This document shows, one piece after another, positions 1-36,689 of a stretch of DNA of 59,508 nt. Each line of letters starts with the position of its first letter. Positions within the stretch are counted from its first letter, which is position 1. Below the pieces are notes generated by a model that saw only the letters and a program-made list of their open reading frames with translations, was not told the origin of the DNA and ran no database searches. This DNA is from an uncultured Gammaproteobacteria bacterium (GTDB taxonomy: Bacteria > Pseudomonadota > Gammaproteobacteria > SZUA-229). A program made the translations under genes and the position numbers. Location of the stretch: contig CAJXZZ010000004.1 of the NCBI GenBank assembly GCA_913065105.1, positions 1 through 59,508 on the forward strand. Reading direction: 5' to 3'.

Positions 1-1711
1 TGGTCAATACAGTCACCGTGCCACCGCGAGTCGTGGTTGAGCCGGTTGTGATGTTGATCTGACCCGGAGCCACGTCACCCAAACCATCCTTCAGATTATC
101 GTCAGCATCGCTGTCGTTATCAGTCAGGTTGATGAATTTCGGTAGGCTGTTCCTCGGTACAGTGGCGAAATCATCGACCGCTACCGGCGGGGTATTGACT
201 GCGGCGATAATGGTGATATTCACCGTCGCAGCAACAGCACTATTTTCAGTACCATCATTAGCGAAATAGGTGAAGCTCGCCGTGTCACCAGCAATAGCTG
301 CCACATCCGGGGTGTAATCGAAGGATCCACCTGCATTAAACACCAATGAGCCAGTAGCTGGACCTGAAACCAGAGTCGCTGTCAGCGCATCTCCGTCCAC
401 GTCAGTGTCGTTGACCAGCACACCCGGTGCGGCCACGCTAAGCACCGTACCTTCGACAGCGTCATAGGCATTACCATTTGCTACCGGCGCATCATTCACC
501 GGGTTCACCGTAATGTTTACACTGGCGACATAGCTGTCCAGCGTGCCATCGTTCGCCCTGTAGGTGAAGGCATCGCTGCCATTGAAATCAGCATTCGGCG
601 TGTAGACAAAGGAACCGTCTGCAAACAAGACCACGCTACCACTGGATGTAGAGCTAACCAGGTTGGCTGTTGCTCCAACCAGCAATGTTAGTGATGCATC
701 AGTATCATTATCAAGAACACCGTTTTCAGCTACATTGAGGACCCCATCCTCGTTGACGGGGTACGGATCAACGTTTGCTATCGGTTGCGAAGCACCCGCG
801 GCCATCGTTAACGTACTAACCATGCCGTTGCCACGGCGATCATAGATAACATAATCGCCGGCCGCATCAGGTAACCACAGTGCATCAATGGTTTTACCCG
901 CCGCCAGGTTGGCAGAATACTGCTGCTTGGCAAATGGATAGGCGTTGCCATCCTCAGCCACCAGACTCATGTATCCACCGCCACTCAGTGTCGGCACGTG
1001 GAAATCAAGGCCTGCATTCAGCATACGCAGCAGCGTCGGATGGTTGTTGTCACCGGCGGTTGGGAACGATTGACTCGTCGAACCATTGACCAGGTAGTGC
1101 CTGGGATGATAACCCAGTGGTGTGGCCGCAGCCGGTGGACTATGCAGTGCAGGATCGATCTCACTATAGAGCATAGTGACTTCGTCGTGGGCATCTGGAT
1201 AGCTAACACCTTTTATCGTAAGCGCACCGTAGAGACCCATCTGTACCTGCTTGGCAGGATGACTGCCGCTCTGGTAGAGATAGGTGCCATCCTTAACACC
1301 GGTCCATGTGTAACTCGCGTTGCCACCAGGAGCTGCCTCGTGGGTGAATGCTGTAATCCGTGTTCGACCGGACCCATCCACAATAGTCTGTGGCGTGAAG
1401 GTCGCAGGCTGACCGGGTATAACGATAGAAACACCCTCGCTTAAGCAGTTACGCAAGTTTACGGTAAGATTGCCACCCACCAGATCCGCGTCGGCCAGTT
1501 GCGGACCAACAGTCCACGCAGGCAGTGAGCCACAGGCTTGTCCAGTATCAGTAGCAAAACCCCACATTGATATCTGGGTAGCACCACCATCCGGTGACCA
1601 TTGTCCATCGATGGCAACCAGATCAACCGCAAAGGAAGACTGTGCCATACCGATACCCGCCAGCAACAGTGCCAGGCTGATCGGTCTAATTTTAAATGTC
1701 TTGTTTTTCAT
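1..1711 (-). CDS. Multicopper-oxidase-like protein with degenerate copper sites and cadherin/VCBS-like repeats, 3' end off the window
   Basis: The frame is open from an ATG at 1711 to the left edge, about 570 codons, with no stop in the window. A GGAG lies nine bases before the ATG. Residues 1-29 form a signal peptide (MKNKTFKIRPISLALLLAGI... ending SSFA). About 270 residues resemble two cupredoxin domains: the stretch GTYLYQSGSHPAKQVQMGL sits where a type-1 copper loop would be, but Cys and the HxH histidines are absent. The usual HPxHxH position reads DFHVPTLSGG. From about residue 300 there are at least three cadherin/VCBS-like units (NDAPVA, PPVAVDD, NDTD-type calcium signatures). It is the last visible gene of the minus-strand operon, 18 bases after the preceding gene. 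It is probably exported and structural or adhesive rather than catalytic; family membership is clear only from its similarity to the neighbouring gene. Confidence 0.75.
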   Translation of the reverse strand, partial: MKNKTFKIRPISLALLLAGIGMAQSSFAVDLVAIDGQWSPDGGATQISMWGFATDTGQACGSLPAWTVGPQLADADLVGGNLTVNLRNCLSEGVSIVIPGQPATFTPQTIVDGSGRTRITAFTHEAAPGGNASYTWTGVKDGTYLYQSGSHPAKQVQMGLYGALTIKGVSYPDAHDEVTMLYSEIDPALHSPPAAATPLGYHPRHYLVNGSTSQSFPTAGDNNHPTLLRMLNAGLDFHVPTLSGGGYMSLVAEDGNAYPFAKQQYSANLAAGKTIDALWLPDAAGDYVIYDRRGNGMVSTLTMAAGASQPIANVDPYPVNEDGVLNVAENGVLDNDTDASLTLLVGATANLVSSTSSGSVVLFADGSFVYTPNADFNGSDAFTYRANDGTLDSYVASVNITVNPVNDAPVANGNAYDAVEGTVLSVAAPGVLVNDTDVDGDALTATLVSGPATGSLVFNAGGSFDYTPDVAAIAGDTASFTYFANDGTENSAVAATVNITIIAAVNTPPVAVDDFATVPRNSLPKFINLTDNDSDADDNLKDGLGDVAPGQINITTGSTTTRGGTVTVLT

Positions 1712-1729
1712 TTCATTAATCTCCTATGA

Positions 1730-3130
1730 TCAATCGATTTGCACGTAGTAGGCTTCGATAATCATCATGGTCAGCATGCCACCAGGGAAGATATCGTAGT
1801 TGGCCAGCTCTTTCTCAGTGTGGGAATGCCACATAAAGCTGAAACCGCCGTTAGGGTTAAGTCCACCCTCACCCGGTGGCAATGCACCGAGGCTACCCAG
1901 ATAGGGGCTACCGCTCCACCAGCCGCCGAAGGCCAGATCCTGCTTCTCAGGCAGAACCACTGGAAAAACTTTGCCATGATCGGGACAGTATTCATTGGTA
2001 ACCGCATCGAAACCTGGAGAGACTTCCGTCAGACCATTACAGGTATGTGCCATCTCGGGCCACACGTCCGTGCCGCCGTAGATATCCCAGTTCAGACCTT
2101 CACCAGTCCATTCGAAGATACCATCACTGGTCTTGCCGGGAATTGCCTTAGTAGTGAATACCTCGGTAGAAAGATCCGGACCCATGCCCGGTGCGCTCTG
2201 CAGCATCTGACCATCCTGCGCGATAATACGAGCATGTTCGCCATGATGATGGAACGGATGCATGTCGCGCCCGCCACCGATCACCCGCATCAACAATTTA
2301 TCACCCGGGTGCATACGCGGCACTGATTTATAAGGTTGAGTCGGTAGCCAGTTAACGTAACTTTCACTGAAGTTGTCTGGCGCGGTACGGCCGTTGATAA
2401 ACCAGTAGTTAGAGAAATAGTTATCTAAAAGAGCCTGGAGTTCTGGTGTGTCCACACCGTTGAGTTCCACCTCCTGGTGAATACGTGGATCCATCTCAGT
2501 GAGGAAGAAAAGCTCCTCATAATCATAGACGGTATCCGCGTGGCCATAGGCCTGTCCACTGGTAGCTGGCCGTACGATTAACGCCCCGGTCAGTCCCATT
2601 TCTACCTGCAGGCCCGGATTGGTACCGCTATGGTAGGTGTAAGTACCAGCGTTGGTGGCAGTAAAGGTATAACTCACCACATCACCATCGGTACCCACTT
2701 CCGTGGTCAAGGCACCATCTACACAACTGGTGTCTGTTCCACCATTAGTACAGCTAGCGGTGACGTCCTGCCCCGGAAACACGATGGACACGTTTGGCTT
2801 AGCACCTGCTGCAACAGTCAAATCATTTTTTAAGTTGATAGTGACAGTGTCACCCTGGTTAACGATCAGTGTTGGTGCCGGATACTGCGCCCTGCCACCA
2901 AAGGTACCGTCGTTTGCAAGGCTGTCATCATCCGAGTAACCCCAGAGCAGCACACTGCCACCGTCGGCAGTACTGATATGATCTACCTTAGCAGTCAAGT
3001 TTAAAATGGTTCCACTGATACCGTCGATTGCTGCCTCAGCACCGACACTTCCCAGCGCCATGAGCACCCCCGCGAGCACGGCGGAAACTCTAGCTCCTGG
3101 TAATACTTTTCTATTTGTTTTCCTGTTCAT
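1730..3130 (-). CDS. Multicopper oxidase subunit carrying HPFHHH and HSH motifs, lacking the type-1 cysteine
   Basis: The product has 466 residues from the ATG at 3130. A GTG at 3145 is also open, but GAGG lies nine bases before 3130, so 3130 is preferred. A signal peptide ends near GAEA. The first cupredoxin domain has a degenerate copper loop (YHSGTNPGLQVEMGL). The last domain keeps H291-P-F-H294-H-H296-G, a classic T2/T3 (and T1 His) motif, and W-H435-S436-H437 near the C-terminus followed by M452. The Cys that normally sits between the last two histidines (HCH) is Ser here, so a type-1 centre is unlikely in this chain. It follows the next gene upstream by only eight bases and is therefore co-translated with it. 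The pair together carry the histidine set of a trinuclear cluster. Substrate unknown. Confidence 0.85.
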   Translation of the reverse strand: MNRKTNRKVLPGARVSAVLAGVLMALGSVGAEAAIDGISGTILNLTAKVDHISTADGGSVLLWGYSDDDSLANDGTFGGRAQYPAPTLIVNQGDTVTINLKNDLTVAAGAKPNVSIVFPGQDVTASCTNGGTDTSCVDGALTTEVGTDGDVVSYTFTATNAGTYTYHSGTNPGLQVEMGLTGALIVRPATSGQAYGHADTVYDYEELFFLTEMDPRIHQEVELNGVDTPELQALLDNYFSNYWFINGRTAPDNFSESYVNWLPTQPYKSVPRMHPGDKLLMRVIGGGRDMHPFHHHGEHARIIAQDGQMLQSAPGMGPDLSTEVFTTKAIPGKTSDGIFEWTGEGLNWDIYGGTDVWPEMAHTCNGLTEVSPGFDAVTNEYCPDHGKVFPVVLPEKQDLAFGGWWSGSPYLGSLGALPPGEGGLNPNGGFSFMWHSHTEKELANYDIFPGGMLTMMIIEAYYVQID

Positions 3131-3153
3131 TTTCATTTTCCTCACCGTTTCGC

Positions 3154-4419
3154 TTAATTAATTACAATCTCTGTCATCATGCCACCGAACGCCTCTGTGT
3201 CATTACTGAGGTAATTCAGGTTGGATGTGTAAAGATAGTAAGTACCCGCTGCCACACCGGCAGTATCCAGAATAACGTCGAATGACTCGCCGCCACCGAC
3301 AGTGACCGAATTGGTGTCGTAATAAAGATTAGTTAGACCATCGGCCGTGCGCAGCTGCTTGGCGTCTTTGCCGACAACGTGCATCGGGATACCCAGGCTC
3401 TGCAATGTGTAGAACCGGGTGATTGCCAGATTGGATATTCGCAGTAATACTTTTTGACCTGCCGTAGCGGTGATCAGTGAACTGACCGGCTGACTGGTGG
3501 GAACGATCGGGTTATCTGGTCCCGCCAGACTGCCAGTGGTCGGTGGGAAGCTATCTGTTCTTGCGTCAGCAGTATCCGGATAACCTCGACCGTTAATCAT
3601 CGGGTAGTTATCTTCCATCAAGGCAAAAGGTAAAGGCTGCGTACTTTCGCTGGCGTCGTGGAAGGCGCCGTCGAAGGAACCTAGCTGAATCGGATACTCG
3701 ACATCATAAAAAGTCGAGCCATCACCGTCGTTATAGGCGTACTGGTTACCGGTCTGGTGGGTAAATCCGTTCAGATCTGTGCCAGCAACCAGTTTGTTCT
3801 GCCCGGCCTTGACATAGAGATTACCCAGCATACCCATCTGCATGTGCTCGGTCGCTTCAACATGGCAGTGATACATATAAGTACCAGGTTCGTTGAGCTT
3901 GTAGTAATAAGTTAGAGTTGCACCCATACCGATTGATAACGCACTTTCCGGCAGACCGTCGAACACGGTCGAGGACTGTGGAAAACCATGGAAATGAGCT
4001 GAATGAGGATCGAACAGATCCGGCCGCATGAGCATGCCGACGTTGGTCAGACTGAGATAAAACTCCTGACCTTCTTCAAGTTCGATGGTAGGCGCCGGCC
4101 ATTCATGAGCGAGGATACCCGCCTGAATCATGGCATCCTTCTGCCCCTTGGTTTTAGTGGGCAAGCCAGTAACATCCGCGAAACTAAAGATATATCGCGG
4201 CGAGCCATCAGCCATGGTGGCATAACCATCACCAGCTGAGAGATGCATGCACTTGATGTCAGGATTGGCTGTCTCGCCGTTACCGCCGATGATCGCGTCA
4301 CCGTTCTTGTCACCGGGACACTGTACCTGCACCGCTGCGGAAACTGATGTCGAACCAAGGGCCATGGTAATGGCTATGGCCAGTGGAAGCAGCGCTATGT
4401 TAAAAGTATTTTTGTTCAT
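3154..4419 (-). CDS. Multicopper oxidase subunit with HFH and HCH...H...M (type-1) motifs
   Basis: The product has 421 residues with a signal peptide ending near SVSAA. GGAG stands seven bases before the ATG. Domain 1 holds H142-F-H144-G (T2/T3 ligands) and Y-H184-C185-H186-x5-H192-x4-M197, which supplies two T3-type histidines plus the Cys/His/Met of a type-1 blue copper site. The Cys-to-His spacing is two residues longer than in plant-type laccases (HCHxxxH). Domain 2 (about 290-421) is cupredoxin-like but has no copper motif. A normal laccase-like enzyme also needs HPxHxH and HCH from its last domain; those equivalents lie in the next gene (1730-3130). This suggests a heteromeric enzyme. 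It is the second gene of the operon, after the giant beta-helix protein and a conserved-looking stem-loop. Confidence 0.88.
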   Translation of the reverse strand: MNKNTFNIALLPLAIAITMALGSTSVSAAVQVQCPGDKNGDAIIGGNGETANPDIKCMHLSAGDGYATMADGSPRYIFSFADVTGLPTKTKGQKDAMIQAGILAHEWPAPTIELEEGQEFYLSLTNVGMLMRPDLFDPHSAHFHGFPQSSTVFDGLPESALSIGMGATLTYYYKLNEPGTYMYHCHVEATEHMQMGMLGNLYVKAGQNKLVAGTDLNGFTHQTGNQYAYNDGDGSTFYDVEYPIQLGSFDGAFHDASESTQPLPFALMEDNYPMINGRGYPDTADARTDSFPPTTGSLAGPDNPIVPTSQPVSSLITATAGQKVLLRISNLAITRFYTLQSLGIPMHVVGKDAKQLRTADGLTNLYYDTNSVTVGGGESFDVILDTAGVAAGTYYLYTSNLNYLSNDTEAFGGMMTEIVIN

Positions 4420-4495: not shown

Positions 4496-7400
4496 TTATT
4501 GAACCTCGTCGGCACCGATGTCATTGAGACTGGGATCACCGCCAGGACGACCTTCACCGTCGAAGTCGGTTGTGACAGCGGGATCAAGAACAGATGCCGC
4601 ATCCTGTGCTGATGAACCAGCCTGGATATGGTAGTCACCCAGCAACACACCTGTGGTCGTATCGGTCTGAGTCAAAGGACCATAACGCAGGCGGATGAAG
4701 TTACCACCCTCATCAAACGCAGGTGGTGCCTGCATGGAAGTTGTACCCTCCAGAATAAGCGTGGTGGTAGAACTACGAGCACCATTGAAATACTCTGCCA
4801 CGAAGTCTGGATCTGCACCGGTACTTATGATGCAATCGATGCATGGAAGTAAACCCAGTGCCAGGTCATCATAGACAACAACGTCACCGCATGCTGCATT
4901 AGAAGCACCACTGGTATCTGGGCATAAGCCACTGACAGGCGCAAATGGATCAGCGCCGGTATTGCTCATCCAGAAGAACTGTCTGTTGTGCCAGACAATG
5001 TTATTGGACAGAGTGGTTTCAGAATACGCTGGACTTCCACTAATGTGTGATGCCAGGTCTGCGCTGTTAGCACGGTTAATGATACCTGCTCCAGACTGTG
5101 CCGCAGACGCTTCAGGCAGGCCTGGTGTGAAAGCCTCGCCCGCTGTAGAAGTAACATCGTTGTTGGCAATCGTGTTGTGACTGATATTGACTGCCAGTGC
5201 ATCCTGCAGCGAGATACCGCCACCGGACAAGCCTGCCACGTTATCAACAATCATATTATTGGTCACGTTAACTTCATGAACAAGACGAGTAACAACGTTC
5301 TTCTTATTAACTCTAACATCCTGACCATTAATACGAGCCAGGCGGATACCTGCACCGTCACCGGCACCCGCTGAGTTACCCTTGATCAGGTTACCGCTAA
5401 CTACCACCGAACCGGAACCCGGGCTGAGTGTCTGCTCAGGGTTGACCAGACAGTTAGGGTCCTGAGCACCAGTAAGCGGATCTCTTGGACAGCCAAAGGC
5501 TGGCAGACCGGCAACTAAAATACCGCCGCCGTTAACCGTAGTACCCTGGTTGAAGTTCTCATTAAACAGCACGGTATTGTCCGCGATCAGACCATCTTCA
5601 CTCAGTCCGAAGTGGGCGATACCGGCACCGCTTGCGTTGGTGAAGTTACCACACACAAAGTTGTCAGTGACTACATAGCCATCCGAACCTGTGTGCAGCG
5701 CCAGACCACCACCAGCAGCATCTAAACCACCGTTCTGCGTGATGGTGTTGTGATCGATAGTGATATTATCGTTATCAGCATCAGAGTAACTGAAGTTACC
5801 ACCCTGCTGGACTGTCATCATCGGATGACCAACACGCACACCGCCAGCATAGAAGGCACTGTTATTGGTGACCCGAAGGTTGGAAATTTCCAGGAAGTCA
5901 GCATAAGCATTAACAACAACACCACCGCCAGTATCAGCGCCAGAGATGGTTATACCGTCGACGCGGGCACCCTTGTTGTTTTGGCTGCCAAATCGGCTAT
6001 TACCAGTAGACTTGGCCAGCACAAACACGCCGGCACCTTCTTCACTGAAGAAAGTTTCAGGCTCAATACCGCCAAAACCTAACTCCTGACCAGGCGCACG
6101 AGAAATAACGTTTCCGTTCTCTAATTCCTCGACTTTTAGCCTCCAGTCAGCAAGCTTATTGAATGGCGCCTTGATAGCATCGATGGTCACGGAACCTTCA
6201 CCCCAGCCCTGAAGCTGAACCGGTTTCCACATAATAACCAGCTCTTTATAAGTACCCGGTGCAACCAGGATCAGGTCGTTGGCACCAGCAGCATCAATAG
6301 CTGCCTGGATTGCGCCTTCACCCCCAGATACAGCAATCACTTTTGCGCCTTGACGCAGACCTACCTGAACCGTAACACCGGTAATGGTAGAAGTACCATC
6401 CGCTCTGGTTACTACCAGCTGATGAGTACCTTCTGCAAAATCAGCAGCAACGGTTACACTAATGGTAGCATCACTCCAGCTACCTGGATCTACAGTAACT
6501 GCTACACCACCGAGGGTGACCGTTCCTTGAGTTTCACCAAAACCATAGTCCCTAAGAACGGTCTTCTCTGTAAAAGTACCTACCCCGCCATAAGCCGGAT
6601 TTGGCACTTCAACTGTTCCCACCGAGGTGATAACAAGACCGCCAGCCGTGACGTTGCCCTGTTGATCTACAGGAATATATGGACCACCGCCCTCACCATT
6701 TGCTGTAGCACTCACGCTATGGATTCTTGGTGTACCTGCTACATACTCACAATCCAGCGGGTTCTGATCAGCTCCAGCAAACGCTGCTACTGGTACTACC
6801 GGTGTATCAAGATAAGTAGTTGAACCAGGCATATACTGGAAGGTATAACAGAACTGGCTGTACTGTGGATTGTGTAGTGGATCATCGGAACCATCTACTC
6901 GAGTTTTCGCATTCATGCAAGTGGTTAACATGTTTGGCGAAATACCGCTTGGCTGACCCAGATTCTCTGTGAAAGTAGATGGGATCAGTGCATTGTAAAC
7001 ACCATACTCATCCGATACCGTGCGTGATATCTCACGACCGGTCCAGTCACGGATAGATACCGGCAGGAACGGTGGTGCATACTTTTCACCAAACTGTGGT
7101 GAAGTAGGATCAAACTCATTGGCCGTATCATCCAGGATGAAACCAATGAAGTGACCAGCAATAGGCACTTCGGTAAACAATAAGAAGTCAGCTGCCGCAT
7201 TAGCGCCGTCAGCAAGAATGACCGTCTTACGATCACACAACTTCATCGTCAAACCTGCAAATGGTGCTGGCTCGCCACCATCAGCAGTAGTGGGATCACC
7301 ATCTGCACCCGCGAACAGGCTCAACTCAGCTGGTACCACGTAGTCAGCACCAGAACATACTGGTGGCAGTAACTCGGGGCTTGGGAAGAAGGTATCACCG

Positions 7401-9763
7401 AAGTCAACATTACGATCCTGTGCCTTGATTACTTCATAACCAAAAGGTGGAATCGCTTCTACCATATACTGGCCAGCAGGAATGGGACCTAAGCCCAATC
7501 CTGTTCCTTCAGCAACACATGCCCCATTAGCATCTAAATCACATTCGGCAAAAGCATAACCACCATCGAATACCGCAGGACGTATCTGGTTCCAGACACG
7601 CATGCCATCAAAACAGTCAGTGATCACGCCGCGGAAATCGAAAGCGGTTCTATTAGCGCCATACTGACAATCTGTAGGCAAGCTATCATCCCAGCTATCC
7701 GTTTCTGTTGTCGCTACCAGTGTAGTACCGTCGGCGGCATATAGATTAACAGTCACACGTGGAATACCTGGCTCCCAGGGCTCGACCGCGGCCTGCTCGG
7801 GATCATTTTCAGCACGGGTCACCGCATATATCACCATACCGGAGATGCCGCCATTCTCACCCGGTGCATAGGCTTTTTTGCCCCACTCAATCACACTGGT
7901 CTGACCCAGAAATGTTTGGAAACCTTCGGTAAGAACAGGACCCAGATCGGTGCGAGTCAAAGCGCCATCAGCCTGCTGCTGCGGATTTAAAGTATCTTCA
8001 TAAGACAGTGGGTCGCCGAATGGTATCGGTCCACCATCATCAACGACCATGGTCGCGCCTGTGGCCTTAAAGCGCGCAAAGTCCACTTCAGCTACCAGCC
8101 ATGAGAAGAATGGGAATACTTCATCGTATGGCGCTACACCCGTAGCGTCGGTAGGGAAAGACTGGTAAACAGTACCGTCACGGAAACGCAGGTTAGTGCC
8201 CTGTTCAATCAAGGGCAGTTCGCCATCATCCCAGATACCATTCTCATTTTCGTCGTTATATACATAGTGCTCCATGCGGGCGAACCACTGGAACACAGGC
8301 ACATCACCGAGATTACAGGCAGTGAGTGCATTACAGCTACCATCAGCTACAAGCAGATCTGCGGCATCAGCGTTCACTACCACTGTGTTCTTGGAGAACA
8401 GCAGGTCAAGGTTATCATCCCAAACGACCAGCTGGTAACTGCCTGGTGGCACGTTAGGAATAGAAAAAGTACCGTCTTCATTAGCACGCTTGGCAAAAAC
8501 ACCTTTGCCCAGGCCAGCCGCACCCAGGTTTAAACCGACCCAGGGTGTAGTGTGTGGGAACGGACCACCACTATAAAAAGCAGTATCTGGTGGTGCCGAC
8601 AGGTGAAGATTGACCACCTGGCCGCTAATAGTCGCGCCGCCGGTTAATACCAGAGCATCGACGTAAGGATTATTTGGTCCCGCAGGTGCATAACCAATAG
8701 TGACGTGTGGGCCTGGAGGGCCAAACTCACCGAAAAAGGCAGGTTCGTCAGCTTTCACCCAGGCATCGATTAGCTTCTTACCTTCGATGGTAGAAGTCTG
8801 AACCCAGTTTGTACCCACGAAATTACCTGAACCAGCAGGCGTCTCAACACCATTAGGCGGCACGGACATGATGCCGTATTTAGCCGGAGCAAGGTTGCGG
8901 ATAGTAACGGTACCGTCAGCACCGGTTACACAGCCACTGCCCGCTGCCAAAACAACAGGCGCACCATCTGCATCAGCTACGAAGGATTCGCCCGGATCGT
9001 GGCTGCCATTGTTATTGGTGTCAGTATATTCATAGGTAGTACATAGTAGATTGCCAAAAGCATCCTGGCTTTGTATACCGGCTGAAGCACCGTATTTGCC
9101 GCCGGCATCTTCGAGGATGATTGCGAATCCCTCAAGACCGCCCTCACCCAGATCCCAGACATTGTTGATCGGTGAAATATCCTCATGCACGAAAACAGTA
9201 ATCTGCGCAGTCGGAATCGGCTGTTTGTTGACATAGACTGTGGCATCGCCATCTTTTAACTGTGCACCACCTATGGAGTAACCGCCATCGGGTAATACCG
9301 AGATATAATAGTGCTTGTTGAGAAAGTCGAGACATGGATCGCCGTCTGCTGCTACACCACATGAAAGCGGCAATGAAGCGACACCATCAGTTACAGTACC
9401 CGTTGCCACAACCGGCATATAACTCTGGTGAAAACTAACTGACAGGGTATCGCGATCGTCAGCTGTTCCCGTCACACCATCCGGTCCTACTTGCCATACG
9501 GGGTCAACAACGGGGACACCGATACCGTCCCTCATTACTGTGCCATCCGGATTTAACGGAACATGGTAGGTCCCGTCTTCCTCGATCAGCCAGCGGTAAC
9601 CGGTAAGTTCTGATGTCGTTGCTGGATTGACAGTGTTATCTACCCCTGTCACCGTTAACGCCATCGCACTCGGAGCCATCAATAAGGCCACAAGGAACAG
9701 CAGCAACTCACTTGCATACGCCATCGGATTAAAAGATTGCATCTCTAGTTTTTTGTATTTCAT
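4496..9763 (-). CDS. Giant secreted SdrD-B-like / TIG / right-handed beta-helix protein (1755 aa)
   Basis: A signal peptide (about residues 1-36, ending SAMA) precedes a long extracellular protein. Several SdrD-B/carboxypeptidase-like beta-sandwich units fall in the first 950 residues, recognisable by repeated D-x-N-x-N-G-x-x-D-x-GE calcium-type signatures (for example YNDENENGIWDDGE) and GSYQLVVWDD / AGQYMVEAIPP strands. A TIG-like domain follows (about 1010-1160). A right-handed parallel beta-helix starts near KVIAVSGGEGAIQAAIDAAG and carries many N-x-I/V-x-x-N repeats. It ends in the DIGADEVQ tail common in such proteins. There is no sortase motif or membrane anchor. GAGGGA precedes the start. 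As first gene of the operon with the oxidases it may be a matrix scaffold or a polysaccharide/metal-binding partner; no catalytic residues are recognised. Confidence 0.85.
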   Translation of the reverse strand: MKYKKLEMQSFNPMAYASELLLFLVALLMAPSAMALTVTGVDNTVNPATTSELTGYRWLIEEDGTYHVPLNPDGTVMRDGIGVPVVDPVWQVGPDGVTGTADDRDTLSVSFHQSYMPVVATGTVTDGVASLPLSCGVAADGDPCLDFLNKHYYISVLPDGGYSIGGAQLKDGDATVYVNKQPIPTAQITVFVHEDISPINNVWDLGEGGLEGFAIILEDAGGKYGASAGIQSQDAFGNLLCTTYEYTDTNNNGSHDPGESFVADADGAPVVLAAGSGCVTGADGTVTIRNLAPAKYGIMSVPPNGVETPAGSGNFVGTNWVQTSTIEGKKLIDAWVKADEPAFFGEFGPPGPHVTIGYAPAGPNNPYVDALVLTGGATISGQVVNLHLSAPPDTAFYSGGPFPHTTPWVGLNLGAAGLGKGVFAKRANEDGTFSIPNVPPGSYQLVVWDDNLDLLFSKNTVVVNADAADLLVADGSCNALTACNLGDVPVFQWFARMEHYVYNDENENGIWDDGELPLIEQGTNLRFRDGTVYQSFPTDATGVAPYDEVFPFFSWLVAEVDFARFKATGATMVVDDGGPIPFGDPLSYEDTLNPQQQADGALTRTDLGPVLTEGFQTFLGQTSVIEWGKKAYAPGENGGISGMVIYAVTRAENDPEQAAVEPWEPGIPRVTVNLYAADGTTLVATTETDSWDDSLPTDCQYGANRTAFDFRGVITDCFDGMRVWNQIRPAVFDGGYAFAECDLDANGACVAEGTGLGLGPIPAGQYMVEAIPPFGYEVIKAQDRNVDFGDTFFPSPELLPPVCSGADYVVPAELSLFAGADGDPTTADGGEPAPFAGLTMKLCDRKTVILADGANAAADFLLFTEVPIAGHFIGFILDDTANEFDPTSPQFGEKYAPPFLPVSIRDWTGREISRTVSDEYGVYNALIPSTFTENLGQPSGISPNMLTTCMNAKTRVDGSDDPLHNPQYSQFCYTFQYMPGSTTYLDTPVVPVAAFAGADQNPLDCEYVAGTPRIHSVSATANGEGGGPYIPVDQQGNVTAGGLVITSVGTVEVPNPAYGGVGTFTEKTVLRDYGFGETQGTVTLGGVAVTVDPGSWSDATISVTVAADFAEGTHQLVVTRADGTSTITGVTVQVGLRQGAKVIAVSGGEGAIQAAIDAAGANDLILVAPGTYKELVIMWKPVQLQGWGEGSVTIDAIKAPFNKLADWRLKVEELENGNVISRAPGQELGFGGIEPETFFSEEGAGVFVLAKSTGNSRFGSQNNKGARVDGITISGADTGGGVVVNAYADFLEISNLRVTNNSAFYAGGVRVGHPMMTVQQGGNFSYSDADNDNITIDHNTITQNGGLDAAGGGLALHTGSDGYVVTDNFVCGNFTNASGAGIAHFGLSEDGLIADNTVLFNENFNQGTTVNGGGILVAGLPAFGCPRDPLTGAQDPNCLVNPEQTLSPGSGSVVVSGNLIKGNSAGAGDGAGIRLARINGQDVRVNKKNVVTRLVHEVNVTNNMIVDNVAGLSGGGISLQDALAVNISHNTIANNDVTSTAGEAFTPGLPEASAAQSGAGIINRANSADLASHISGSPAYSETTLSNNIVWHNRQFFWMSNTGADPFAPVSGLCPDTSGASNAACGDVVVYDDLALGLLPCIDCIISTGADPDFVAEYFNGARSSTTTLILEGTTSMQAPPAFDEGGNFIRLRYGPLTQTDTTTGVLLGDYHIQAGSSAQDAASVLDPAVTTDFDGEGRPGGDPSLNDIGADEVQ

Positions 9764-10118: not shown

Positions 10119-11837
10119 GTGATTCGAATTATTTTTATATCTATGATTTTGTTAGCGCTTATTCGTGGAACAGTTATGGCCGAGACTGAATCAGTCGACG
10201 GTTTATCATCTGAAGAAATGCTAGTACTCGGCGAACGCATGTATCGGGATGGTATTTTGCCAAGCGGAGAACCCATTCAGTCGATGGTATCGATAGACGT
10301 ACCTGTAGACGGACGCATGTTCACCTGCGTGAACTGCCATCAGCGTAGCGGCCTTGGATCTGTCGAAGGGTCGGTTATCACCTGGCCCATCAATGGCAAA
10401 GAACTGTATATACCTCGGCGTCGAACTGGTGCATGGAATGCTACCAAGCAGAAGCAAGGACCGGGGGCCTCGGAACGCTGGTCACTGCCCTCCCAGTACC
10501 AGGCGGCCGATGCGCGACCAGCCTACAATGACGCGACGTTGGCACGACTGCTGCGAGAGGGAATCGACCCAGCAGAACGAGTATTGGAACGGGGGATGCC
10601 ACGCTACCAGATCAACGACAGCGACATGGCCGTGCTGACCCATTACCTGAAAAATCTCTCTATTGAAAACGATGTGGGTGTTGATAAAAACAAAATCCGA
10701 TTCGCCACGGTGGTCACGGAAGGTGTATCGGCAGTGGACAAGGAAGCGATGCTAGCGATACTGAAGACCCACATTGATACACATAATACCCAGACCCGAC
10801 CCCATCAACGTCGCGCCAGTGCAGGCCCATTCTACAAAACAGAAAAATATGGTGCCTACCGTCAGTTTGAGTTGGACGTCTGGGAACTGAGTGGCCCACG
10901 AGACACTTGGCAATCACAACTCGATACCTATTATCAGGCTGGGCCAGTGTTTGCCATGCTCGGTGGAATTGCCAGCGGAAGTTGGGCCCCCATTCACGAC
11001 TTCTGTGAAGAGCACGAAATGCCTTGTATATTCCCTATTACGGATCAGCCTGTCGTATCTGATACCGACTGGTACACCCTGTATTTTTCGAAAGGCCTAT
11101 ACCAGGAAGGAGAAACCGCTGCACGCTATCTGCACTCAGCTCTCGACATTGGCCAGGATATCAACGTTATGCAAATCTATCGCACCGGTAGTGCTGGCGC
11201 CATGCTGGCACAAGGAGTCCGGGAAAACATGAGGAAGTCTGGCGTTATTACAACAACAGACTGGAAACTCGGCGCAGACGAACCAATGACAGATAAACTG
11301 CTGCAACAACACTTTGAAACACAACGGCCTTTGGCAGTAATGCTGTGGTTAGATGATAAGGACATGCTCGTCGCCACCGACTGGCTGGCAAAACAATCTC
11401 AGCAACCCGAGACGGTATTTGCATCCTGGAAACTGCTCGAAGGCAACACTTCGGCGATTCCGGATAGCTTACGTGAGAATGTTTACCTTACATATCCTCG
11501 AGACCTTCCCGAGAACAACGCGATGAAAATCAGCGTGCTGAAACGCTGGCTTAATATACGCAAGATTCCGGTGACCAACCTGGATATCCAGTCGCAGATG
11601 TATTCCCTTGGCTGGATATTGCCAGGCGCCATCTCACATATGCGCAGCGAATTTTACAGAGATTATTTTATGGAAAGTTTCGACATGATGCATGACCAGG
11701 ACTACGCTGTCGCAGTGTTCCCCCGCTTGACTTTCGGACCCGGCCAACGCTACGCTGCCAAGGGCTGTTATATCGTGCAACTTGGTGAAGGCGAACAACC
11801 GCATCTTATAAAAAAGAGTGAATGGATCATTCACTAA
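10119..11837 (+). CDS. Monohaem cytochrome c fused to a periplasmic-binding-protein type I domain
   Basis: The product has 572 residues from a GTG start with GGGAG about 12 bases upstream; an in-frame ATG eight codons later (10143) would also leave a signal peptide. The signal peptide ends near TVMA. A c-type haem site C70-V-N-C73-H74 and a later GMPRY segment (a likely Met ligand) define the cytochrome part, to about residue 185. From about 190 to 560 the protein looks like a leucine/amino-acid-binding ABC receptor (GPVFAMLGGIASGSWAPIHDFCEEHEMPCIFP and the INVMQIYR strand). This is the pattern of a soluble periplasmic redox protein with a ligand-binding module. It pairs with the SCO chaperone 33 bases downstream and faces the oxidase operon, so a role in taking or sensing electrons from that system is plausible but inferred. 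Confidence 0.8.
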   Translation: MIRIIFISMILLALIRGTVMAETESVDGLSSEEMLVLGERMYRDGILPSGEPIQSMVSIDVPVDGRMFTCVNCHQRSGLGSVEGSVITWPINGKELYIPRRRTGAWNATKQKQGPGASERWSLPSQYQAADARPAYNDATLARLLREGIDPAERVLERGMPRYQINDSDMAVLTHYLKNLSIENDVGVDKNKIRFATVVTEGVSAVDKEAMLAILKTHIDTHNTQTRPHQRRASAGPFYKTEKYGAYRQFELDVWELSGPRDTWQSQLDTYYQAGPVFAMLGGIASGSWAPIHDFCEEHEMPCIFPITDQPVVSDTDWYTLYFSKGLYQEGETAARYLHSALDIGQDINVMQIYRTGSAGAMLAQGVRENMRKSGVITTTDWKLGADEPMTDKLLQQHFETQRPLAVMLWLDDKDMLVATDWLAKQSQQPETVFASWKLLEGNTSAIPDSLRENVYLTYPRDLPENNAMKISVLKRWLNIRKIPVTNLDIQSQMYSLGWILPGAISHMRSEFYRDYFMESFDMMHDQDYAVAVFPRLTFGPGQRYAAKGCYIVQLGEGEQPHLIKKSEWIIH

Positions 11838-11870: not shown

Positions 11871-12503
11871 ATGACCCAGAAATTTTTATTAAAGAACATT
11901 GTACTTCTACTGAATGGCTTTATCGGGCTGACATTCATGTTATCAACCAGTACTGCAATAGGTACCGAGCAAGACCCCCATGCGCATCACAAACTGATGA
12001 TGAAACAGCCGGGTTACACGAGTTCCATACATACCTATGTAATCCCGGAGCTTTATCTCAACGATACAAACAACACCAAGGTGTCACTACAGGAAATACT
12101 AGGTGGCGATGGACCAGTCATGCTGAATTTTATCTTTACGACCTGCACTACAATATGCCCCATCCTCAGCGCCACCTTTTCTCAGGTGCAACGTGAACTT
12201 GGTAACGAAGCAAAAAACGTGCGCATGATCTCAATAACGATTGACCCTGAACAAGATACACCTGAACGATTGAAAGAGTATGCCGGTAGATTCAAAGCGG
12301 AATCTGGCTGGTTGTTTCTGACCGGATCCATTGATAACATCATTGCCACTCAAAAAGCTTTCGATGCCTACAGGGGTGACAAAATGAACCATGTCCCGCT
12401 TACCTTTCTTCGTAGCACACAGGATGGCTCATGGGTCAGACTTGAAGGTTTTACCAGTGCAAGTGAAGTGGTAGCTGAGTACCGTCAGCATCTATCACAA
12501 TAA
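11871..12503 (+). CDS. SCO1/SenC family copper chaperone
   Basis: The product has 210 residues with an N-terminal signal or membrane anchor (about 9-31). The thioredoxin-like fold carries the copper/redox site T-C92-TTI-C96-P, and the distal copper ligand His174 in DKMNHVPLTF. Length and motifs fit the SCO family, which delivers copper to CuA of cytochrome oxidase or to other copper enzymes. No cytochrome oxidase genes are nearby, so the adjacent multicopper oxidases are the likely clients (inference). A His-rich stretch (HAHH, about 37-40) near the mature N-terminus may also bind copper. Co-oriented with, and close behind, the cytochrome c fusion gene. Confidence 0.9.
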   Translation: MTQKFLLKNIVLLLNGFIGLTFMLSTSTAIGTEQDPHAHHKLMMKQPGYTSSIHTYVIPELYLNDTNNTKVSLQEILGGDGPVMLNFIFTTCTTICPILSATFSQVQRELGNEAKNVRMISITIDPEQDTPERLKEYAGRFKAESGWLFLTGSIDNIIATQKAFDAYRGDKMNHVPLTFLRSTQDGSWVRLEGFTSASEVVAEYRQHLSQ

Positions 12504-13328: not shown

Positions 13329-13985
13329 ATGATTTCACCTGCTCGGATTTTAATCGCTGATGACCATACTATCTTAAGAGATGGAGTACGCTCTTTACTA
13401 AATGTAGTGCCAAACTTTGAAGTTATAGGCGAAGTAGATAACGGTAAAGACGCAATACTCTCTGCAGGTCAATTAAAACCCAACGTGATAATTAGTGACC
13501 TATCTATGCCAGGAACAAATGGCACTGAAGCAATTCAACGTATAAACAGCCGCTACCCCGAAATAAAAATACTCGTACTCACTGTTCACAATTCTGCAGA
13601 ATATATACATGCAGCGCTTAAAGCCGGTGCGAGTGGATATTTATTAAAAGACGACACTAGTGAAGAGTTAATTAATGCCATCAATAATATACTGGCAGGT
13701 AAAATCCATTTAAGCCCCAGTATTTGCGGCAATGTGGTTATGGGATATTTAGCAGACCAGGACAATCAAATAAAATCTACCAGCGCTGAACAATTAACTA
13801 CTCGTGAACGTGAAATTATAAAACTCATTGCTGAAGGTTATAGAAATAAAGATGCTGCTGAATATCTATCAATTAGCCTGAAAACCGTCGAAAAACATCG
13901 CTCCAACATGATGAAAAAACTGGATCTACATAGCACGAGTAGTATTACCAGTTATGCCATAAAAAATGGTTTCATCACCCAATAA
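13329..13985 (+). CDS. NarL/FixJ family response regulator with LuxR-type helix-turn-helix
   Basis: The product has 218 residues. The N-terminal receiver has DDH near the start, the phospho-acceptor Asp at about residue 56 in IISDLSMPG, the Thr of LTVHNS and the Lys of LLKDD. The C-terminal LuxR HTH reads LTTREREIIKLIAEGYRNKDAAEYLSISLKTVEKH in sequence segments (about 158-192). The family binds DNA as a dimer after phosphorylation. No sensor kinase is adjacent. A perfect dyad lies 57 bases upstream, and CCTACTA half-sites shared with the oxidase-locus operator array lie further upstream, hinting that it may control that locus. Confidence 0.9.
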   Translation: MISPARILIADDHTILRDGVRSLLNVVPNFEVIGEVDNGKDAILSAGQLKPNVIISDLSMPGTNGTEAIQRINSRYPEIKILVLTVHNSAEYIHAALKAGASGYLLKDDTSEELINAINNILAGKIHLSPSICGNVVMGYLADQDNQIKSTSAEQLTTREREIIKLIAEGYRNKDAAEYLSISLKTVEKHRSNMMKKLDLHSTSSITSYAIKNGFITQ

Positions 13986-33137: not shown

Positions 33138-35828
33138 ATGACAAACGGAGTTATTAAAAGCGACTGGTTTACCGGTCTTGTTATTACTTTTATATTCCTG
33201 ATTTTTGCCGGCTCCGATTTCATCGCAAGCATGGAACGAAACGCTTACGATTTTGGCGTCATATCATCATCACGCAGCCCTAGCGATAAAATCGCCATTA
33301 TTGCGATTGATGACCAAAGTATTGCTAACATTGGTCGCTGGCCCTGGTCACGCGATATCCATGCACAGATGCACGAAATCCTTGCTGAAAGTGGTGCCAA
33401 AGCAGTCGGTCAGATGGTATTTTTTTCTGAGCCACAGTTAGATCCGGGTTTAGAATTTATTCGTGAACTAAAACTATCATTCGAAGAAAGCAGCATAAGC
33501 ACAATTCCTGGACTTATTGAAGGACTTGCCCTCACGATCGAAGGCAGTCGTAAACTGGTAAGCAGTAAACGCGATATCAATGGCAAAGCCGCAGTGCAGG
33601 AAATTTCTGACGCGCTGGAAGGCTCCCCATTACGTCACCAGGTCACTAAAGATTTAAACGCCTATCTCGAATACATAAACTCTGCAGAAATTCTCCTCGA
33701 CACTGACAATACACTTGCACTAAGCATACAGAGAGCTGGCAACGTTGTATTGAATATGCCTTTTGCAGCGGGACAAGCTTACGGTCAACCCGACCAATCA
33801 CTACCCGCGTATGTCTCAAAAAACAAACTGCCTGAAAAAAACATTATTGATAATGCAACAATCAACCCTGAAGGTTTTACTCCATTAACCATGGTGGGTG
33901 CGTATCAGCCTATTCCCATTTTGGGTGAACAGGCTAATGCTATTGGCGCTTTGGTTACACTACCGGATGTTGACGGTGCTATTCGTACAGAACCACTGAT
34001 CGTTGACTACTACGGTGAACTGTATCCATCAATAGCGTTAGTATTGGCAGCAAAAAGTTTGAACCTTGGCATTGAAGACATTCGGATTAACGTTGGCGCA
34101 GATGTACAACTTGGACGTCTGAACATTAAAACCAATAGCGAATCATTAATGAACACCTTCTTCTATCACGACGAAGCACAAAATGGCGCCTTCCCCATTG
34201 ATTCCTTTTTCGATGTATTAACGGGAAAAATTTCCGCTGAAAAATACAAAGACAAGATTGTTCTCATCGGTGCGACTGCTTTAGGTGTTGGTGATACTTT
34301 TGTAACACCAATCAACTCATCAATGTCACCGGTAGTCACACAGGCTCATTCAGTTTCAAGCATTCTTAATGAAGATTTTTTCGTTGAACCTGAATGGGGT
34401 TTTTTTGCACGACTCGGCGCTTTACTTGTAGTCGCTTTATACTTGATGCTGTTATTACCAAAATTAAGCGCCGCAGTTGGTTTCATCATTACCAGTATTT
34501 TACTGTTTGCTTTATTTACCACTCACTACATCATGATGACAACGCAAGGTATGTGGATACAGCTAATGATGCCGGGACTACTACTTGCTACCGGTCATAT
34601 ATTGTTAACCACTAAACATTTTTTCCTGTCTGAAAAAGGCAAAGCTCGTCTTGATGTTGAGTCTGCAGAAAGTAACCGTATGCTTGGTCTTTCCCTGCAA
34701 GGTCAAGGCCAGCTAGATATAGCATTTGAGAAGTTCCGTAAATTACCACTGGATAAATCCGCTCTTGATCTAATGTATAACCTGGCGCTAGATTATGAAC
34801 GTAAGCGACAGTTCAATAAGGCCAAATCAGTTTACGATTACATGTCTGGATTTGACAGCAAGTTTCGAGATATCAAGCAGCGCTCTAGTCGTGCTCAGGC
34901 CCTTGAAGAGACAGTTATTTTTGGCGCTGGCAGTGGATCTTCACCGGGAGGTAACGTACTACTTGACGGCGGCGGTGTAGAGAAACCCATGCTCGGACGT
35001 TATGAAATTGATCGTGAACTGGGCAAAGGTGCCATGGGCGCCGTCTATCTGGGCAAAGATCCAAAAATCTCCCGTACTGTGGCAATTAAAACCATGGCAC
35101 TCTCTCAGGAGTTTGAAGATGATGAACTGGCCGAAGTTAAAACACGCTTCTTCCGCGAAGCTGAAACTGCCGGTCGCCTCAATCATCCAAATATCGTTAC
35201 CATTTTTGATGCTGGCGAAGAACACGACCTCGCCTATATTGCAATGGAATATCTTAAAGGCACTGATTTAAGAATATATATTAAACCCGATATGTTATTA
35301 CCTATAGAACGGGTGCTTTCTATTATTCAACGCTCAGCTGACGCTATCGATTACGCCCACCAGAACAATGTTGTTCACCGTGACATCAAACCCGCCAATA
35401 TAATGTGGGACCCGAAAACCAATGAATGCAAAATAACAGATTTTGGTATCGCCCGTATTACTGATTCCAGCAAAACTAAAACCGGTATGGTATTAGGCAC
35501 CCCCTCTTACATGTCGCCAGAACAACTGGCCGGTAAAAAAGTCACTGGACAGTCTGACATCTTCTCCCTTGGTGTAATGCTGTTCCAGATGGTAACAGGT
35601 CAATTACCATTTACTGGCGACTCCATGGCTGCATTAATGTACAAAATTGCCAATGAAAAACACCCAAGTCCTGACACTATTAACCCTGACATTCCACGTT
35701 GCGTCACTGTCATCATAAATCGCGCCATGGAAAAAGATGTTGCAAAACGTTATAAACGTGGCAAACAGATGGTCGACGACATAAATAAATGCCTTCGAAT
35801 CATGGCTGCAGAAGGTAAAGCCAAATGA
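33138..35828 (+). CDS. CHASE2-domain serine/threonine protein kinase
   Basis: The product has 896 residues. An N-terminal membrane segment leads into an extracytoplasmic CHASE2 sensor (about 40-400, DKIAIIAIDDQSIANIGRWPWSR and IVLIGATALGVGD), then a cluster of membrane helices (about 418-495) and a TPR-like helical linker (about 505-590). The C-terminal kinase domain starts near 619. Its glycine loop is GKGAMG, the ATP lysine is K651, the catalytic HRD Asp is D749, the DFG Asp is D768, and GTPSYMSPEQ is the activation segment; all are intact. Its stop overlaps the phosphatase start by four bases, so the two are translationally coupled. Confidence 0.93.
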   Translation: MTNGVIKSDWFTGLVITFIFLIFAGSDFIASMERNAYDFGVISSSRSPSDKIAIIAIDDQSIANIGRWPWSRDIHAQMHEILAESGAKAVGQMVFFSEPQLDPGLEFIRELKLSFEESSISTIPGLIEGLALTIEGSRKLVSSKRDINGKAAVQEISDALEGSPLRHQVTKDLNAYLEYINSAEILLDTDNTLALSIQRAGNVVLNMPFAAGQAYGQPDQSLPAYVSKNKLPEKNIIDNATINPEGFTPLTMVGAYQPIPILGEQANAIGALVTLPDVDGAIRTEPLIVDYYGELYPSIALVLAAKSLNLGIEDIRINVGADVQLGRLNIKTNSESLMNTFFYHDEAQNGAFPIDSFFDVLTGKISAEKYKDKIVLIGATALGVGDTFVTPINSSMSPVVTQAHSVSSILNEDFFVEPEWGFFARLGALLVVALYLMLLLPKLSAAVGFIITSILLFALFTTHYIMMTTQGMWIQLMMPGLLLATGHILLTTKHFFLSEKGKARLDVESAESNRMLGLSLQGQGQLDIAFEKFRKLPLDKSALDLMYNLALDYERKRQFNKAKSVYDYMSGFDSKFRDIKQRSSRAQALEETVIFGAGSGSSPGGNVLLDGGGVEKPMLGRYEIDRELGKGAMGAVYLGKDPKISRTVAIKTMALSQEFEDDELAEVKTRFFREAETAGRLNHPNIVTIFDAGEEHDLAYIAMEYLKGTDLRIYIKPDMLLPIERVLSIIQRSADAIDYAHQNNVVHRDIKPANIMWDPKTNECKITDFGIARITDSSKTKTGMVLGTPSYMSPEQLAGKKVTGQSDIFSLGVMLFQMVTGQLPFTGDSMAALMYKIANEKHPSPDTINPDIPRCVTVIINRAMEKDVAKRYKRGKQMVDDINKCLRIMAAEGKAK

Positions 35829-36649
35829 GCCTTAAAGGAAAAATACTACTGCATGGTAAAACAGATACAGGTCTGGTTCGTGATCATAATGAAGACACTA
35901 TAGCCTGTGATGAAAACATCGCATTAGCAATACTTGCTGATGGCATGGGCGGGCATCGCGGTGGAGAAATGGCAAGCGCGATTACAGTCAGCACCATACT
36001 CGAACTAATCACTGAAAATAGCAAAAAACTAAATGCCGGTGAAACCGATGAAGACACTGGTTACAGTGTAGAGAGTCTACTTGTACACCAGGCAGTTACC
36101 CTGGCAAATAAAAACGTACATGATTCATCAGAAGAACATGCGCAATATCGCGGCATGGGCACGACTGTTGTCGTGGTTCTATTTTATGACAACCGTTTCA
36201 CCGTAGCTCACGTCGGTGACTCACGACTCTATCGTTTACGTGATGGTGAACTCGAACAAATAACACGTGATCATAGTTTGATGCAGGAATTGATCGATCG
36301 TGGTTTCTATACACCAGAGCAGGCTAGAAACTCATTAAATAAAAATCTTGTGACACGCGCCGTCGGTATTGATAACAATGTGCAGATCGATATACAGGAA
36401 GATGTCGCCATGGTTGATGATATTTATCTGCTGTGTTCAGACGGTGTTAACGACATGATTGAAGACCACCTGATCAAATCAGCAATAACTGAAAACATTA
36501 ATGACTTAGAAAATGCAGCGACAGAAATTATTCGTCTGGCAAATCAACATGGTGGTAAAGACAACATATCAGCACTACTGGTTAAACCAATAAAACCATT
36601 CCCTGCTAAAAATAGCTTGTTTTCTCGTATTTTTGACATATTCTCTTAA
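35825..36649 (+). CDS. PP2C-family serine/threonine phosphatase
   Basis: The product has 274 residues. The metal-binding motifs RDHNED, LADGMGGHRGGE, GTTVVVVL, HVGDSRLYRLR, CSDGVNDM and GGKDNIS are all present, so the enzyme should be active. The start codon lies within the kinase's last codons (ATGA overlap). It probably reverses phosphorylation by the neighbouring kinase. Cytoplasmic; the short extension after about 255 is not part of the domain. Confidence 0.93.
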   Translation: MSLKGKILLHGKTDTGLVRDHNEDTIACDENIALAILADGMGGHRGGEMASAITVSTILELITENSKKLNAGETDEDTGYSVESLLVHQAVTLANKNVHDSSEEHAQYRGMGTTVVVVLFYDNRFTVAHVGDSRLYRLRDGELEQITRDHSLMQELIDRGFYTPEQARNSLNKNLVTRAVGIDNNVQIDIQEDVAMVDDIYLLCSDGVNDMIEDHLIKSAITENINDLENAATEIIRLANQHGGKDNISALLVKPIKPFPAKNSLFSRIFDIFS

Positions 36650-36689
36650 TACAGATACATATAATAAATAAAAATTCATACAAAATGTA

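Follow-up and report, generated by a model that had tools for sequence, protein, structure and literature searches.

A candidate bacterial multicopper oxidase with copper ligands divided over two gene products and a third paralogue without them

Introduction

No multicopper oxidase (MCO) that we know of takes its copper ligands from more than one gene; they sit within a single chain or recur in the identical chains of a homo-oligomer. Three adjoining genes at one end of a contig from an uncultured Gammaproteobacteria bacterium (GenBank assembly GCA_913065105.1, contig CAJXZZ010000004.1), here called A, B and C, raise the question whether one such active site can be divided over two genes and be accompanied by a third paralogue without ligands. 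The stretch analysed, called the window below, is this one entire contig of the source genome with a length of 59,508 nucleotides. The original prediction made for this DNA had placed the open reading frames (ORFs) of A and B correctly, both on the minus strand, and had read in them motifs that are indeed present (HFH and HCH-x5-H-x4-M in A, HPFHHH and HSH in B). Its suggestion of a heteromeric MCO is supported by complementary ligands, by the co-occurrence of A and B and by the placement of their domains in a joined-chain model. It had also called the arrangement one not known to be described, and we found no description of a heteromeric MCO with divided ligands in the openly licensed literature of PubMed Central (PMC), which omits most subscription papers and all preprints.

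The explanation that we consider likely is that a type-C two-domain MCO has diverged into the paralogues A, B and C, which form an obligate heterotrimeric A-B-C ring with one live A/B site, mounted on the giant product of an upstream gene, G. The homotrimeric ancestor would have had an identical trinuclear copper site wherever domain 1 of a chain met domain 2 of its neighbour. Its eight His would have been retained only where domain 1 of A meets domain 2 of B, while the interfaces of B domain 1 with C domain 2 and of C domain 1 with A domain 2 would have lost theirs. Such a system would be a step from homotrimeric two-domain enzymes toward six-domain proteins like ceruloplasmin that was taken by subunit specialisation and not by gene fusion, and it would make the evolutionary route to six-domain MCOs testable, with one form of it present in the cultured Cupriavidus metallidurans CH34.

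Results and discussion

Division of the copper ligands between A and B

Pfam matches at or above the cut-off are Cu-oxidase_3 in all three proteins, Cu-oxidase_2 in A and B, and Cu-oxidase in A. The top match of both A and B in the Protein Data Bank (PDB) is 3g5w from Nitrosomonas europaea, and 2zwn ranks second for A and fourth for B; we take both entries to be type-C two-domain MCOs. In their layout, domain 1 has HxxHxHG, HCH-x5-H and the type-1 copper, and domain 2 has HxxHxHG and HDH. Since both chains are closest by sequence to the two-domain 3g5w among solved structures, we place their parent among the type-C two-domain MCOs and have rejected a classic three-domain laccase for this role. 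Complete one-chain relatives were found in 19 of 21 loci from other genomes (L099-L119), all 19 with HDH; of the remaining two, L102 is cut and L118 holds a different protein of 669 aa.

For a comparison of the eight trinuclear and four type-1 ligand positions, we aligned 15 rows each of A, B and C (the window plus 14 random draws from rows of suitable length) with 11 one-chain enzymes and the two split pairs of loci L016 and L017 that are described further below. A agrees with the one-chain enzymes at the domain 1 ligands in 15/15 rows and is without a ligand set in domain 2; its HSAHFHG aligns to HTIHWHG of complete one-chain relatives and its HCHVEATEHMQMGM to their HCHVNVNEHVGIRGM. B agrees at the domain 2 ligands, again in 15/15 rows, and its domain 1 ligand positions are mostly occupied by V or T, V or L, P, S, G, Q and L. 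C shows neither set, and one domain 1 His is kept in 5 of the 15 B rows and in 4 of the 15 C rows. Hence no chain holds all four trinuclear motifs, with the domain 1 pair on A, the domain 2 pair on B and none on C (Table 1).

It had been claimed earlier that the site is complete only when A and B are taken together, as measured against a classic laccase. The trinuclear half of this claim stands, given that neither chain is complete alone, but the parent is a two-domain enzyme and the type-1 copper site (H139, C185, H192, M197) is complete in domain 1 of A, at 83/83 loci of the set introduced below, and absent from domain 2 of B. Ser441 of B, taken earlier as a replacement for the type-1 Cys, is rejected as a substitute: the one-chain relatives carry Asp at this position (HDH), and A already holds the full type-1 site.

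Table 1. Features of the locus and its surroundings, by position in the window
Feature	Position	Strand	Description
Gene A	3154..4419	-	421 aa; two cupredoxin domains; domain 1 live, domain 2 without ligand set
A motif HSAHFHG	3985..4005	-	H139 type 1; H142, H144 trinuclear
A Asp154 in DG.P motif	3958..3960	-	83/83 loci; aligned to DGVP of 3g5w
A motif HCHVEATEHMQMGM	3829..3870	-	H184, H186 trinuclear; C185, H192, M197 type 1
Gene B	1730..3145	-	471 aa from GTG; domain 1 dead, domain 2 with four trinuclear His
B motif HPFHHHG	2240..2260	-	H299, H301 trinuclear; H296 conserved
B motif HSHTE	1814..1828	-	H440, H442 trinuclear; S441; E444
Gene C	2..1711	-	570+ aa, off contig end; two degenerate cupredoxin domains, then cadherin/Ig repeats
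Gene G	4496..9763	-	1755 aa, exported, scaffold-like; upstream of A
Periplasmic-binding-protein-like protein	10119..11837	+	572 aa; Pfam match below cut-off; CXXCH motif by eye
SCO1/SenC protein	11871..12503	+	divergent neighbour; likely copper delivery
LuxR-type response regulator	13329..13985	+	near divergent unit

Where BLAST aligns them, A, B and C are mutually mostly 21-31% identical, and in a tree of 59 rows (L015 left out) each forms one clade, that of C with strong support; the tree also joins A to the one-chain group, which was flagged as a long-branch meeting and not used. Judged from its sequence, C is a doubly degenerate paralogue, and it is incomplete in the window because the window is an entire contig and C reaches its end. 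Sec-like signals were recognised by eye in A, B, C and G. The spacing of eight bases reported earlier between A and B holds if B starts from the GTG at 3145, but homologues of B start near the ATGs at 3136 and 3130, so that the gap is probably 17-23 bases.

Conservation of ligands and of lost positions

A scan of 84,980 species genomes returned 444 relatives of A, and the 80 best were kept for analysis. Adding the window and six further loci of its order, and removing four duplicates (L018, L060, L075, L078), gave a set of 83 loci with A in 83, B in 80 and C in 75. By their record titles, the 80 kept loci fall into seven named phyla and one candidate division, with two lacking a phylum, and many host names belong to sulfur-, methane- or iron-cycling groups. 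One annotated record labels all three parts "hypothetical protein".

The ligands are invariant across this set. H139, H142, H144, D154, H184, C185, H186, H192 and M197 of A are found at 83/83 loci. Among the 80 rows of B, H296, H299 and H301 are kept in 79/79 rows that have a letter there, and H440, S441, H442 and E444 in 74/74; the six rows without a letter at the second motif are due to contig ends (L011, L081, L083) or split or broken frames (L039, L080), or belong to L035. The division extends to the acids of the site. In Fet3p, Asp94 and Glu487 are the two acids used in O2 reduction, and we take Asp154 of A to be the equivalent of the proton-relay acid Asp94 and Glu444 of B that of Glu487, so that this pair, too, is split between the chains.

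Counts of HxH motifs by protein half give the same picture. In 76 of the 83 A rows, domain 1 has two or more and the second half has none; the other seven have one in that half, which lies just behind domain 1 and off the ligand columns. For B, 68/80 rows combine a domain 1 free of HxH with two or more in domain 2. The remaining 12 rows show, for domains 1 and 2 respectively, 0 and 1 (four rows), 2 and 2 (three), 1 and 2 (three), 1 and 1 (one) or 0 and 0 (one). Six of these have lost the second motif, L037, L090 and L092 are over-long ORFs, and L056, L069 and L082 have an HxH elsewhere in domain 1. Homologues with complete sites in each chain, named beforehand as the case that would speak against a divided site, did not turn up: the aligned domain 1 HxHG position of B is Pro124 in 80/80 rows, with no row having His there, and the domain 2 ligand columns are free of HxH in every A row.

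Some of the vacated positions have themselves become fixed as non-ligands, namely Pro124 in B and Asp291 and Arg292 (window numbering) in C. C lacks any HxH motif in 71/75 rows, and the latter two residues, each present in 70/75 rows, replace its lost domain 2 trinuclear pair. From the sequences, this Asp-Arg pair may form a salt bridge in place of copper at an interface that is dead.

Predicted structures and the placement of the two half-sites

Since A, B and C share one frame in some homologues, the chains were modelled joined, that is, folded by AlphaFold2 as one chain with the stops read as Gly. The best of five models was kept in each case. A+B of L025 reached a predicted template modelling score (pTM) of 0.79 and a mean predicted local distance difference test score (pLDDT) of 81.0 (75.8-81.0 across the five models), and A+B+C of L054 a pTM of 0.81 and a mean pLDDT of 78.6 (65.3-78.6). 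In these models, A and B each have two cupredoxin domains with the fold of 3g5w and 2zwn: the A part of the L025 model superposes on the two entries with Z 27 over 272 residues at 2.1-2.2 Å, and the B part of the L054 model with Z 29 over 272-274 residues at 2.6 Å.

The one-chain MCO 6vow (409 residues, numbered 1-423) superposes over its entire chain on the A+B model with 369 residues aligned at 2.6 Å and Z 23.6, and maps, in terms of end points, to model residues 35-868. This puts the first MCO domain in A and the last in domain 2 of B, placed as in a working enzyme. The structure prediction that had been proposed as a check, carried out here on A and B as one joined chain, thus relates domain 1 of A and domain 2 of B like the first and last domains of a one-chain MCO, and this predicted placement would be the relation that forms a trinuclear site. 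Matches found with Foldseek, whose alignments are sequential and can stop in domain 1 of B, were more mixed. For the A+B+C model, four Thermus laccase entries scored template modelling (TM) values of 0.67-0.74 by target length over 746-764 columns, with an overall root-mean-square deviation (rmsd) of 11-16 Å; with that many aligned columns the match must extend into B. Other one-chain three-domain MCOs shown gave TM 0.40-0.57 over about 550-640 columns. The best E-values of this model include ceruloplasmin (1kcw, 4enz) and factors V and VIII, at TM of about 0.2. A ceruloplasmin-like ring in the same domain order is therefore unsupported (TM 0.20-0.25); the opposite domain order would explain the poor superposition of the model, without proving that order.

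Several observations weigh against a site shared by A and B or against the ring as a whole. 6vow is the only three-domain MCO among the 50 matches listed, with ranges that are end points only, and joining the chains by reading through stops favours contact between A and B, while AlphaFold may recall the geometry of MCOs. The loops that carry the ligands include poorly scored ones: 10-residue mean pLDDT in the A+B model is 61 at the first motif of A (41 in the next block), 66-85 at its second, and 83 and 76 at the motifs of B, and in the A+B+C model 50-67 and 64-86 for A and 85-88 and 70 (50 in the next block) for B. The A+B model matches Thermus laccase poorly in Foldseek (TM 0.50-0.52 over about 590 columns), and the A+B+C model superposes on ceruloplasmin with an rmsd of about 34 Å at the TM given above. 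Loss at the dead interfaces is not uniform either, as H172 is kept in 39/80 B rows and the equivalent His in 21/75 C rows. Lastly, the conservation of HCH, H192 and M197 in A is partly by construction, because the peptide patterns used to scan the genome collection, T[YF]MYHCH and EHM[QE]MGM, both lie inside this second motif. The first motif of A and all of B are outside these patterns, and the loci gathered by whole-protein or profile similarity (the window, L010-L015, L098, L135 and L136) have the same ligand sets as far as they are sequenced (B of L011 ends before its second motif, and L015 has only part of A).

Weighing these points against the ligand comparison and the models, we still hold it very likely that the trinuclear site is shared by domain 1 of A and domain 2 of B.

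Gene order, fusions and co-occurrence

G, A, B and C are all present at 73/83 loci and stand in the order G-A-B-C on one strand in 70/73 of these by script, or 71/73 when L037, where an over-long ORF misled the script, is counted. The exceptions are L064 with an inverted G fragment and L086 with A-B-(C::G). The A-B gap has a median of 12 bases. Nine of the ten loci that lack one or more of the genes end at most 450 bases away on the side of the missing gene; the tenth, L073, ends 123 bases behind A and also has no G within 1,835 bases before A. At the eight loci without C, the contig ends less than 450 bases from the last gene found.

G itself combines an SdrD B-like domain with a polysaccharide-lyase-type fn3_3 domain and has a weak NosD-like (right-handed beta-helix) stretch near residue 1150-1200, a match below cut-off. 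C often carries cadherin or dockerin-like tails or is fused to G. Two kinds of fusion with G were found: a G::A fusion of 2413 aa in L083 (profile and Pfam) and a C::G fusion of 2628 aa in L086 (C part by profile only). A three-gene set of A, B and C::G is present in L135 (C. metallidurans CH34, NC_007974.2, 11494-23235) and in L136; the main text of the genome paper for C. metallidurans (PMC2864759) contains the word "multicopper" 0 times. The search of genomes for the same split and for fused forms had two outcomes, with A and B found together at 80/83 loci and no natural A::B fusion, that is, no ORF in the 83 loci with both at high profile score.

Co-occurrence also holds beyond this set. 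Among 398 phylum-sampled genomes, the same two (the window's own genome and G299) have high-score A and B and none has only one of them, and the weaker matches there are one-chain or other MCOs. Of 54 genomes from the same order, six have A, and B accompanies it in five; in the remaining one (G022), A lies at the end of a contig. In the plasmid collection, A was found in eight records of C. metallidurans and Paraburkholderia, all eight with B; two of these eight loci, L135 and L136, were read and gave the three-gene set described above. There was no match in PHROGs and phage records.

These data bear on two rival explanations. Metagenome-assembled genomes and draft contigs are common among the loci, and the whole arrangement could in principle be one MCO gene broken by misassembly or a frameshift. 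Yet A, B and C each have two domains and their own signal sequence at low mutual identity, and recurrence of the conserved order in at least seven phyla and on complete replicons of C. metallidurans CH34 and Paraburkholderia rules this artefact out, so that we regard it as hardly conceivable. Alternatively, A and B might act apart, A as a homotrimeric electron-transfer protein or oxidase and B in copper binding or as a structural protein, each with incomplete clusters. In keeping with this, the A and B halves of the models each match, taken singly, a two-domain MCO or a nitrite-reductase subunit, and two Deinococcus plasmid records match B (57% of length, 27% identity) and not A. But the loss of ligands is exactly complementary, the genes co-occur and A and B are predicted to dock; moreover, the four His and Glu444 of B are invariant even though B alone could not complete a cluster. 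Separate action of A and B is thus very improbable, and the sequence-level division of the ligands would argue against a functional homotrimer.

A second, two-gene split in the same genome

The genome of the window contains a second system with the same ligand division in loci L016 (2494-4639 of contig C83) and L017 (8942-11034 of contig C56), in which an A-like chain has a live domain 1 and a B-like chain a live domain 2. The B-like gene comes first, and no separate C or G was found in L016 and L017. Across the 54 order genomes, the B-like gene is present in 11 (12 loci, including L121-L130) and is adjoined by an A-like gene with YHCH in 12/12 loci. The A-like chain is Gly-rich. By eye, the B-like chain has a Tat-type (twin-arginine-like) signal in 11/12 loci and the A-like chain lacks a signal in 11/12, L130 being the exception for both; this combination hints at joint export of a folded complex. 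The pair thus differs from A/B/C in having two genes and a Tat-type instead of a Sec-like signal on the B-like chain, and a second pair with the same division in the same genome would count in favour of a site shared by two gene products.

One relative departs from this pattern. Domain 2 of the B-like chain of L126 (G030, 1245-2312) reads HSLHFHG and MHCH, which sets this chain apart from its relatives, so that a type-1 Cys is possible there and the division of the type-1 site may differ.

The two-gene pair is also an argument for keeping C out of the ring. A and B might share their site in an A2B, AB2 or A3B3 assembly, with C serving as an adaptor to the scaffold only: the pairs of L016, L017 and their relatives manage the same division without an adjoining C, and the tails of C and its fusions to G would suit an adaptor. 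C nevertheless has the same two-domain cupredoxin architecture as the other two, occurs at 75/83 loci and forms its own strongly supported clade, and only an A:B:C ratio of 1:1:1 gives each of the three ring interfaces a matching live or dead pair. We therefore see an adaptor-only C as unlikely. C is probably the third member of the ring, and closure of the ring by C at 1:1:1 seems to us a reasonably probable arrangement.

Proposed mechanism

In the A-B-C ring that we favour, electrons would enter at the type-1 copper of A and pass along the Cys-His path of its HCH loop to the trinuclear cluster common to A and B, where O2 would be reduced to water with the aid of Asp154 of A and Glu444 of B. 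The complex would be exported to the cell envelope and mounted there on the giant G protein, with one site per ring and with SCO1 as the probable copper supplier; as electron donor, a metal ion or a c-type cytochrome would be our guess.

A copper-loaded complex need not reduce O2, and it could, for example, be a reductase, a copper store or a chaperone. The names of several hosts mark them as sulfate reducers or bacteria of the sulfur cycle, in which the use of O2 is not obvious, and the nearest folds include copper nitrite reductases. Against this, all eight trinuclear His and both acids needed for O-O cleavage are invariant, and the window's own genome has a match above cut-off to cytochrome oxidase subunit II (COX2), so that its host probably can respire O2. 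The copper nitrite reductase NirK combines a type-1 site in domain 1 with a three-His type-2 site and has no HCH type-3 ligands, whereas A has HCH and A and B together hold eight trinuclear His. A function other than that of an oxidase is in our judgement quite unlikely, and the ligand set makes reduction of O2 a likely activity of the enzyme, held with some confidence.

Comparison with known systems

Like A and B, the type-C two-domain MCOs 3g5w and 2zwn have two cupredoxin domains per chain and the same motif layout. All of their motifs lie on one chain, however, whereas here half-sites lie on two gene products and the third paralogue has none. By its motifs, A/B/C would work like a two-domain MCO and at the same time fall outside that family as defined by one complete chain. 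Ceruloplasmin arranges six cupredoxin domains about a pseudo-threefold axis and has one trinuclear cluster and three type-1 sites; it and the other six-domain MCOs are one polypeptide, and here there are three genes. We lean towards seeing A-B-C as an unlinked bacterial counterpart of ceruloplasmin, that is, an obligate ring with one shared site and two deliberately dead interfaces on a giant exported scaffold; its genes occur in at least seven phyla, and the two-gene split in the genome of the window is a parallel to it. Heterodimeric fungal laccases resemble A/B/C as MCOs with an extra subunit, but their small subunit is unrelated and without copper ligands and their catalytic chain is complete.

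The homotrimeric state that we assume for the ancestor is described for two-domain laccases in PMC3192119, with the active site between two monomers. The nearest described multi-protein MCO that we found is Mnx, an operon-encoded complex of composition MnxE3F3G from Bacillus sp. PL-12 (PMC5622069). As described there, mnxG is the one gene that encodes an MCO, no characterised protein resembles MnxE or MnxF, and MnxG is called the only characterised MCO that needs accessory proteins for successful overexpression. Mnx thus has one MCO chain, while A/B/C consists of three two-domain chains with divided ligands (no search for homologues of MnxE or MnxF was made). MnxG (9bxa) appeared in Foldseek with TM of about 0.20-0.27.

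Neighbouring genes

Neighbours across the 83 loci were counted by phmmer with the members of L010 as queries; single-linkage clustering gives different figures, and many loci end at contig ends, so that some neighbours will have been missed. A small conserved protein of about 163 aa was found at 59/83 loci by phmmer (43 by clustering) and a subtilase (S8) at 46/83 (49), followed by relatives of SCO1 at 23/83 (16) and of the periplasmic-binding-like CXXCH protein at 23/83 (21); a regulator cluster covers 32/83 loci by single linkage. These neighbours suit an exported copper enzyme and name no substrate. The small protein and the subtilase were not found in the first 14 kb of the window, where C runs off the contig end.

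The small protein has the pattern WGIEV..R......MLDFRYRV (e.g., L010:15735-16229 and L012:10179-10670), and three examples scanned gave no Pfam match. The subtilase lies downstream of C (L010:16222-17934, L012:7259-8983) and is possibly a processing protease; that of L010 has a MopE-type copper-binding motif just below the Pfam cut-off. In the window, the protein encoded at 10119-11837, divergent from G, joins its N-terminal CXXCH to a periplasmic-binding-protein-like region. Further along the contig, consecutive ORFs at 33138-37415 resemble, from their translations as read by eye, a CHASE2-type Ser/Thr kinase, a PP2C phosphatase and an FHA protein.

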